A stretch of 64,000 bases of DNA from Rathayibacter sp. Leaf185. GTDB taxonomy: Bacteria; Actinomycetota; Actinomycetes; Actinomycetales; Microbacteriaceae. Below the pieces are notes generated by a model. It made no database searches and had not been told where the DNA came from. It worked only from the letters and a program-made list of their open reading frames with translations. The stretch covers positions 504,575 to 568,574 of the forward strand of contig NZ_LMPP01000002.1 of assembly GCF_001423885.1 (NCBI RefSeq), in the 5' to 3' direction. The translations under genes and the position numbers were made by a program. Below are positions 29,416 through 29,575 of the stretch, in pieces. Each line of letters opens with the position of its first letter. Position 1 is the first letter of the stretch.

Positions 29416-29463
29416 CGTGGTCCTTGGGTCGGGGTGTCCCTCACCCGGGCCCCGACATGCAGA

Positions 29464-29488
29464 ACGACCGCCCGGTCGAGGCGGTCGT
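29464..29488 (-). terminator. Attenuator hairpin in the leader of the PhzE-like gene
   Basis: On the transcript, ACGACCGCC pairs perfectly with GGCGGTCGT across a 7-base loop, followed by TTCTG. It lies between the Trp leader peptide and the PhzE-like start codon, in the position expected for a transcription attenuator. Confidence 0.7.
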
Positions 29489-29518
29489 GTGCGAGAGGAG
29501 TCTGCGCGTCGGCCTGCC

Positions 29519-29563
29519 TAGGAGGCGGGCCACCAGGAGCGGCGGAGGGTCGACGTGCGCATG
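29519..29563 (-). CDS. Trp-type leader peptide, 14 residues
   Basis: Reads MRTSTLRRSWWPAS then TAG. Two adjacent TGG codons (residues 10-11) are the classical Trp sensor of a trp-operon leader. The ATG lies 6 bases after TAGACT (minus strand), so translation would start at the mRNA 5' end. A terminator hairpin follows 30 bases after the stop. Ribosome stalling at the Trp codons when Trp-tRNA is scarce should favour read-through into the PhzE-like gene. Confidence 0.8.
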
Positions 29564-29569
29564 GGGGGA

Positions 29570-29575
29570 GTCTAG
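29570..29575 (-). promoter_or_regulatory. -10 hexamer TAGACT for the Trp leader transcript
   Basis: TAGACT on the minus strand is followed by six C residues and then the leader ATG. No ribosome site is present. The leader peptide is thus probably read from a leaderless transcript. Confidence 0.5.

Follow-up and report, generated by a model that had tools for sequence, protein, structure and literature searches.

A putative tryptophan attenuator ahead of a PhzE-type fused anthranilate synthase in Rathayibacter and other actinobacteria

Locus architecture

The window, by which we mean the whole stretch of 64,000 nucleotides that was analysed, carries a fused TrpE–TrpG gene of the PhzE type (trpEG, or the fusion) that is coupled to a short GlpX-like gene and preceded by a compact leader (Table 1). 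The initial annotation had described here a short frame with adjacent TGG codons, a 9-bp hairpin, a PhzE-like fusion and a coupled GlpX-like gene, and had placed the leader ATG six bases after TAGACT; every one of these features was recovered at its position, the TAGACT spacing exactly. All of the attenuator elements lie on the minus strand, inside the interval marked by that annotation. The leader reads ATG CGC ACG TCG ACC CTC CGC CGC TCC TGG TGG CCC GCC TCC TAG, with the ATG at 29562–29560 and the TAG at 29520–29518. Its stop codon is followed after 29 nt by a perfect 9-bp hairpin (29488–29464; ACGACCGCC against GGCGGTCGT, with a 7-nt loop), and a further 48 nt separate the hairpin from the ATG of the fusion ORF.

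The DNA past the hairpin reads TCTGCATG, a poor U-tract that is seen in Rathayibacter, and this tail explains why a U-tract terminator scan of the window gave no match at the hairpin. At the leader, a sigma-70 promoter consensus scan found no match and no Rfam family reached its gathering score. The fold of the 147 nt that begin at the leader ATG and stop just short of trpEG was not unusually stable (z = −1.34); it contains a second GC-rich helix ahead of the trpEG start, which by eye is poorly conserved among relatives.

The nearest solved structure to the fusion is 3r74 (E 2.1e-159, residues 24–617), which we take to be PhzE, an ADIC synthase; the text of the record reads anthranilate/para-aminobenzoate synthases component I. 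Over these residues the two proteins have the same fused two-domain architecture, but the fusion differs in having no PhzD-like neighbour, in its Trp leader and in belonging to a genome without TrpE. Against NF010086, the model of canonical actinobacterial TrpE, the fusion scores 108.9 bits, far under the cut-off of 693. Among its relatives, the trpEG frame of two Rathayibacter loci (L018 and L227) is broken near codon 420–434, through sequencing error or decay, and one further fusion (G053:C8:51452-53605) was matched in three pieces in a genome that also has canonical TrpE.

The GlpX-like protein scores 239.2 bits, under the NCBIfam cut-off of 259.3. Its alignment with the solved GlpX 6ayy, presumably the enzyme of M. 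tuberculosis, reaches only residue 283 of 347, which means that the protein lacks the C-terminus. The same genome has a second GlpX that exceeds the cut-off (G000:C9:96479-97414). GlpX-like neighbours of trpEG are confined to the Rathayibacter lineage (9 of the 80 named loci introduced below), and this partner does not belong to the conserved system; that it supplies sugar phosphates to aromatic synthesis would be a guess.

Table 1 Features of the leader and its downstream genes in the window
Feature	Position	Strand	Remarks
Possible −35 element TTGGCC	18 nt upstream of TAGACT	−	TTGG at the equivalent place in 11 of 15 genus loci, by eye
−10 box TAGACT	29569..29574	−	Exactly six bases ahead of the leader ATG
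Leader peptide ORF MRTSTLRRSWWPAS with stop	29518..29562	−	mRNA presumably leaderless; WW leaders in relatives
Tandem Trp (TGG) codons, putative sensor	29530..29535	−	Intact in 14 of 15 genus genomes, Arg-Trp in one
RNA region 1, Pro-Ala codons CCCGCC	29524..29529	−	Predicted to pair with region 2
RNA region 2, AGGCAGG, overlapping the stop codon	29513..29519	−	Alignment and pairing analysis
RNA region 3, predicted terminator 5′ arm ACGACCGCC	29480..29488	−	Pairing analysis
RNA region 4, predicted terminator 3′ arm GGCGGTCGT	29464..29472	−	Hairpin energy −17.6 kcal/mol
PhzE-type fused anthranilate synthase TrpE–TrpG, 624 aa	27541..29415	−	Pfam PF00425 (Chorismate_bind) and PF00117 (GATase)
Short GlpX-like class II fructose-bisphosphatase, 284 aa	26690..27544	−	GTG start overlaps the trpEG TGA stop

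Conservation of the leader

We followed the leader in 80 named loci, the best 80 of 136 from a genome scan, which were found through exact peptide patterns of the query and are therefore biased to close relatives. A short leader with WW(W) lies upstream of the orthologue in 55 of these 80 loci. The genera that bear it include Rathayibacter, Plantibacter, Gryllotalpicola, Arthrobacter, Cellulomonas, Promicromonospora, Myceligenerans, Brevibacterium, Brachybacterium, Jiangella and Streptomyces. These counts leave out L079, a locus that starts at the match and so has no upstream leader region, and treat L042, with an ambiguous WW short ORF that departs from the conserved anatomy, as having no leader. 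Across the Microbacteriaceae the fusion occurs in 20 of 150 genomes and the leader in 19 of these 20. The element is present in all 15 genomes of the genus, the single departure from the two Trp codons being AGG TGG (Arg-Trp). Conservation of WW in relatives, which the initial annotation had proposed as a check, was thus borne out at all three levels (55/80 named loci, 19/20 Microbacteriaceae and 14/15 genus genomes).

Where the hairpin was correctly located, its 5′ arm starts 11–32 nt past the stop codon, a range that omits four Cellulomonas-type loci with a G–U pair in the stem (L014, L019, L033 and L080) as well as L034. One Microbacteriaceae genome, G003, has a WW leader yet no clean terminator by eye. 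Clear T-runs are seen in some orthologous elements, for example GGTCGTTTTTTT in Arthrobacter (L010 and L012).

Fused anthranilate synthases without a WW leader make up 16 of the 80 loci (L037–L039, L041, L043, L045, L047, L049, L050, L052–L057 and L060), to which the ambiguous L042 may be added. The seven tested genomes among these 16 loci all lack an NF010086-type TrpE, which indicates that the fusion can function with no attenuator in front of it; we expect these leader-less fusions to be under other Trp control or none. A Microbacteriaceae genome of 1.4 Mb likewise has the fusion (G027:C15:22783-24627), with both NF010086-type TrpE and the leader absent.

Evidence for a leaderless start

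In each of the 56 leaders (the 55 loci and the window) a TANNNT box ends exactly 6 nt (28 leaders) or 7 nt (28 leaders) ahead of an in-frame start, compared with a background rate of 0.016 in the same upstream regions (spacings 5–8); the count admitted any in-frame ATG or GTG start, which favours the discovery of a fitting box. Among the 71 covariance-model matches described below, such a box lies 5–8 nt before the leader start in 65, again in a count that favoured a fit by preferring starts that have a box. Because the −10 box sits 6 or 7 nt before the start in all 56 leaders, the sensor ORF is probably leaderless, and this spacing lends support, as a proxy, to the earlier guess of a leaderless mRNA. 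The corresponding transcript of S. lividans TrpL1 is leaderless by RNA-seq, according to excerpts of PMC8079986.

Pairing and folding of the leader RNA

The core of the attenuator consists of UGG UGG, codons that double as RNA region 1, and a stop codon that overlaps region 2. We examined its pairing in an alignment of 27 leaders (A1), collected by a TGGTGG search, so that the invariance of the Trp codons in it holds by construction. CCCGCC of region 1 is complementary to GGCGG of region 2, starting at the last base of the stop codon; AGGCGG of region 2 is complementary to CCGCCU of region 3, the 5′ arm of the terminator; and region 3 is complementary to region 4. In helices 1:2 and 3:4 together, 93.7% of cells are paired and four pairs show double changes, a level reached in none of 500 shuffles; in helix 1, two column pairs have a double change, in one sequence each. 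In helix 2:3, 95.1% of cells are complementary and variation occurs solely through lost pairs, so that this helix is backed by complementarity, with no covariation. Region 2 of the lineage of the window has one A replacing a G of the AGGCGG consensus, which leaves one mismatch in helix 2:3. As predicted from the alignment, the pairings 1:2, 2:3 and 3:4 are mutually exclusive. Since the residues that follow WW differ among relatives while the paired bases mostly stay, the constancy of WWPA lies largely at the RNA level.

Folding of the window RNA gave helix 2:3 (−13.8 kcal/mol) when region 1 was masked and region 4 not yet made, and the terminator when a ribosome was placed at the stop codon. 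Adding region 4 while region 1 stayed masked made the terminator the minimum-energy fold again (−23.7 kcal/mol). Because the terminator wins even with a stalled ribosome once region 4 exists, the switch must be kinetic, as it likewise is in the model of E. coli trp attenuation.

Genome-wide specificity of the element

A covariance model built from the 27 leaders was searched against 394 genomes of the class regardless of genes and returned one match each in 71 genomes at E up to 0.001, under stricter filters that miss weak elements. All 71 matches precede a tryptophan gene, as identified by tblastn of the DNA just downstream: the fusion in 39, trpS in 23, another anthranilate synthase in 6 and trpD in 3. 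Two of the 71 contain an exact training sequence, and one of these is the window. NCBIfam models confirmed trpS in the five scanned of the 23, including the weakest (L209, 36% identity, 255 nt away), and trpD in the one scanned of the three. The six other enzymes were identified as clade-3 anthranilate synthases (NF010081 in 6 of 6, 788–806 bits, cut-off 645), and on these scores a TrpE label for them was dropped. For two loci at contig ends, L169 and L173, the loci L199 and L222 stand in. A looser threshold gave one chance match in a congener (L237, E 0.003), by eye at the 3′ end of an NAD synthetase-like ORF. A search of the own genome (that of the window) with the simple pattern TGGTGGCCCGCC was dominated by chance matches, the reversed control pattern giving more.

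Tryptophan genes in the genome and its relatives

The own genome encodes three chorismate-binding proteins (PF00425): a PabB-like protein that adjoins leuS, an isochorismate synthase (MenF-like) that adjoins menD, and the fusion. The PabB-like assignment is not a formal one, because its 325.4 bits fall under the pabB cut-off of 328.4. Searches with NF010086 and PF00425 found no canonical TrpE in this genome, which has trpA, trpB, trpC and trpD. The TrpF model PF00697 had no match in it, as in actinobacteria that use PriA. In three relatives (G123, G118 and G053), trpE sits between hisF and a membrane-protein gene, and trpC, B and A follow in G118 and G053 but were not found in the stretch of G123 examined. 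In the own genome hisF, hisI and the same membrane-protein gene abut, followed by trpC, B and A, with no room for trpE. Given that an ordinary TrpE is missing yet trpA, B, C and D are kept, the fusion is, by these searches, the sole evident anthranilate synthase of the genome; it seems to have taken the place of the usual enzyme.

None of the 15 congeners, all of which have the element, reaches the NF010086 cut-off; weaker matches number three in 14 of them, as in the own genome, and five in one. Here and below, absence of TrpE means that there is no match of NF010086 strength, a definition that other synthase types escape (clade-3 enzymes score 214–231 bits), and the check with the general model PF00425 covered the own genome only. 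By this definition, 17 of 150 Microbacteriaceae genomes lack TrpE, a count that takes in several incomplete genomes as well as G124, in which part of TrpE is seen at the end of a contig. The fusion occurs in 8 of these 17 compared with 12 of the 133 that have TrpE (Fisher p 2.8e-4, ignoring the kinship of the genomes). Canonical TrpE is therefore kept in 12 of the 20 Microbacteriaceae genomes with the fusion, which in these genomes may have a redundant or a specialised role. A test of 28 named genomes found 13 without an NF010086-type TrpE: four from the Rathayibacter lineage, Plantibacter, Microbacterium gubbeenense, and seven from the Ornithinimicrobium/Kytococcus clade, which has no leader.

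Tryptophan or phenazine

A resemblance to PhzE raises the possibility that the enzyme is of the phenazine or ADIC type, with the Trp leader merely reporting aromatic amino acid status to a secondary metabolite pathway. The nearest solved structure and the fused Chorismate_bind and GATase architecture fit this idea, as does the chorismate pocket: excerpts of PMC5906492 name three pocket positions that differ between PhzE and anthranilate synthase, and in the family two of them are of the PhzE type (S217 and T369), with A at position 368. However, positions 217, 368 and 369 are S, A and T in 79 of 79 aligned rows, in leader-bearing, leader-less and PhzD-linked members alike, so that the pocket does not discriminate and residues S217, S368 and T369 were rejected as a discriminator. 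This uniformity agrees with PMC5958127, according to which the reason that one enzyme yields anthranilate and the other ADIC is not apparent from sequence.

What sets a PhzD-linked group apart is the leader and the gene neighbourhood. The seven Streptomyces homologues that have no leader (L061–L066 and L072) coincide exactly with the loci in which a PhzD-like gene lies immediately upstream: tblastn found such a gene in only these 7 of 99 loci (flanks of 1.5–4 kb), none of them of the Rathayibacter lineage. The three PhzD-like genes scanned contain a Pfam Isochorismatase domain, a class II DAHP synthase gene lies near L062, the one PhzD-linked locus scanned for it, and no leader was found within 600 nt upstream of any of the seven. 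In a tree rooted at midpoint for drawing only, one branch sets off the PhzD-linked members and another the Ornithinimicrobium/Kytococcus members that lack a leader; L018, whose ORF ends after 434 codons, and L079 were left out of the tree and the residue counts. All three PhzD-linked Streptomyces tested have an NF010086-type TrpE, whereas the host of the window has trpA, B, C and D and no other evident anthranilate synthase. The distribution of the PhzD-like gene in the flanks of the loci, the tree and the distribution of TrpE led us to reject the phenazine role, which we regard as very unlikely, and the suggestion in the initial annotation that the enzyme feeds tryptophan rather than phenazines is upheld by the missing TrpE, the retained trpA, B, C and D and the leader-less Streptomyces members beside a PhzD-like gene.

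The PhzD-linked clade differs from the leader-bearing rows at eight residue positions, and by eye, with few clades to compare, 3r74 has the PhzD-type residue at six of the eight (232, 273, 336, 352, 353 and 594), at 336 the rarer of two such residues. As a functional marker these positions would be a lead, not evidence.

Proposed mechanism and alternative explanations

Taken together, these data point, with a probability that we put at about 0.88, to a ribosome-mediated trp attenuator of classical layout that controls the PhzE-type fusion, the sole evident anthranilate synthase of the genome. It is very likely that the stretch works as an RNA switch that senses tryptophan, and the conserved WW leader and hairpin support the attenuation proposed by the initial annotation. 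RNA polymerase would begin at the A of the leader ATG or close to it, and a ribosome would load directly on the 5′ end. When Trp-tRNA is charged, the ribosome would reach the UAG and cover region 2, allowing the 3:4 terminator to form. When Trp-tRNA is scarce, the ribosome would stall on UGG UGG and cover region 1, leaving region 2 to pair with region 3 as an antiterminator before region 4 is made, so that trpEG and the GlpX-like gene would be transcribed. Without translation, 1:2 and 3:4 would form and transcription would stop. We infer the transcription start, the efficiency of termination, the response to Trp-tRNA and the product of the enzyme from the DNA.

The leader might sense tryptophan and act through Rho-dependent termination or through translation instead of intrinsic termination at the 9-bp hairpin, as the poor U-tract of the window and the second GC-rich helix ahead of the trpEG start could suggest; we consider this unlikely, because the hairpin is strongly conserved and covaries, orthologous elements such as those of Arthrobacter have clear T-runs, and the second helix is poorly conserved. 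A different kind of sensor would be a nascent peptide, WWPAS, that itself stalls the ribosome in the manner of the arrest peptide TnaC, rather than a response to uncharged Trp-tRNA. The WWPA(S/D) ending is strikingly constant over several families, which is what an arrest peptide would require, but the residues after WW are not fixed (P may give way to T, S, L or R, and S to D, E, P or F), the residue change in L022 is a paired double change, and the loop codon varies while the paired bases are mostly kept, so that RNA pairing explains the constancy. With both alignment and covariation favouring RNA pairing, we rejected peptide arrest, to which we leave only a very slim chance.

A chance combination of a short ORF with a hairpin also had to be weighed, given that GC-rich DNA yields 0.9 WW short ORFs per shuffled 64-kb window. 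Together with a perfect hairpin of at least 8 bp, such an ORF arises at a rate of 0.01 per dinucleotide-shuffled 64-kb window (200 shuffles), and with the −10 box as well in none of the 200, whereas the real window has one. The shuffles, the conservation of the element and its association with Trp genes in 71 of 71 matches reduce coincidence to a negligible probability, and it was rejected.

Relation to known attenuators

Lin, Paradkar and Vining reportedly described, in 1998, an anthranilate synthase gene of Streptomyces venezuelae with a trp attenuator. The arrangement, an attenuator before an anthranilate synthase gene, is that of the window, in an organism of a different order from Rathayibacter. 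The S. venezuelae enzyme is fused, to go by a title cited in PMC5958127. Compared with the window, in which two Trp codons are followed by a region 2 at the stop codon, the 14 Streptomyces leaders found before the fusion have three Trp codons and, by eye, a region 2 inside the ORF; canonical TrpE is kept in 5 of 5 Streptomyces genomes tested but is absent from the own genome.

According to excerpts of PMC8079986, S. lividans has a leader peptide TrpL1, MFAHSTRNWWWTAHPAAH, ahead of a monocistronic anthranilate synthase gene, and also a TrpL2. The Trp-run leader and hairpins described there for TrpL1 resemble those of the window, whose leader differs in being predicted only, in having two Trp codons and in preceding a gene that is followed by a GlpX-like gene. 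The core NWWWTAHPAA of TrpL1 recurs in 12 of the 14 leaders that precede the fusion in Streptomyces, and from this leader we infer that the gene behind TrpL1 is the orthologue of the fusion. Attenuators have also been reported for the trp operons of Corynebacterium and Streptomyces and for S. avermitilis trpS2 (Seliverstov et al. 2005, PMC1262725). In the excerpts available of that study, they have double or triple UGG, competing hairpins and GC-rich terminators, as in the window, but their terminators are all followed by poly-U, whereas the tail in the window is poor in U; those excerpts name neither trpD alone nor the Microbacteriaceae fusion.

In the open-licence literature we found no Microbacteriaceae trp attenuator and no Rathayibacter anthranilate synthase, although a 2015 paper on attenuators in Actinobacteria (cited in PMC4833913) may cover part of this ground; on trpS and trpD leaders in Actinobacteria, the portions of that literature at hand yielded nothing on trpD or the Microbacteriaceae fusion. 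Trp attenuators in actinobacteria are already known; the present additions are that trpE has been lost, that the element also stands before trpD, and that the leader may serve as a functional label. The leaderless type of trp attenuator, which had been described in Streptomyces, would now extend to the Microbacteriaceae, Micrococcaceae, Cellulomonadaceae, Promicromonosporaceae, Brevibacteriaceae, Dermabacteraceae and Jiangellaceae, and to trpD. A gene that would be called PhzE-like is likely to be the tryptophan-dedicated anthranilate synthase of a genus without ordinary TrpE (0 of 15 genomes). The presence of the leader and the absence of a PhzD-like neighbour offer a simple genomic label for telling anthranilate from ADIC synthases, useful in a family in which the pocket residues fail to discriminate. 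Whether one leaderless core is a shared Trp module before two types of anthranilate synthase, trpD and trpS across families, accompanied the displacement of trpE by the fusion in Rathayibacter and Plantibacter, and labels the anthranilate-making as opposed to the ADIC-making PhzE-like members, is a broader proposition for which we see an even chance.

The WW attenuator was also seen ahead of trpD, the gene for anthranilate phosphoribosyltransferase, in three genomes of two families (L155, L174 and L178) and ahead of a clade-3 anthranilate synthase in six genomes that belong to a single genus (L210, L211, L217, L218, L220 and L221). The 23 genomes with this type of attenuator ahead of trpS are represented by loci L162, L172, L182, L186, L188–L192, L194–L199, L201–L206, L209 and L222.
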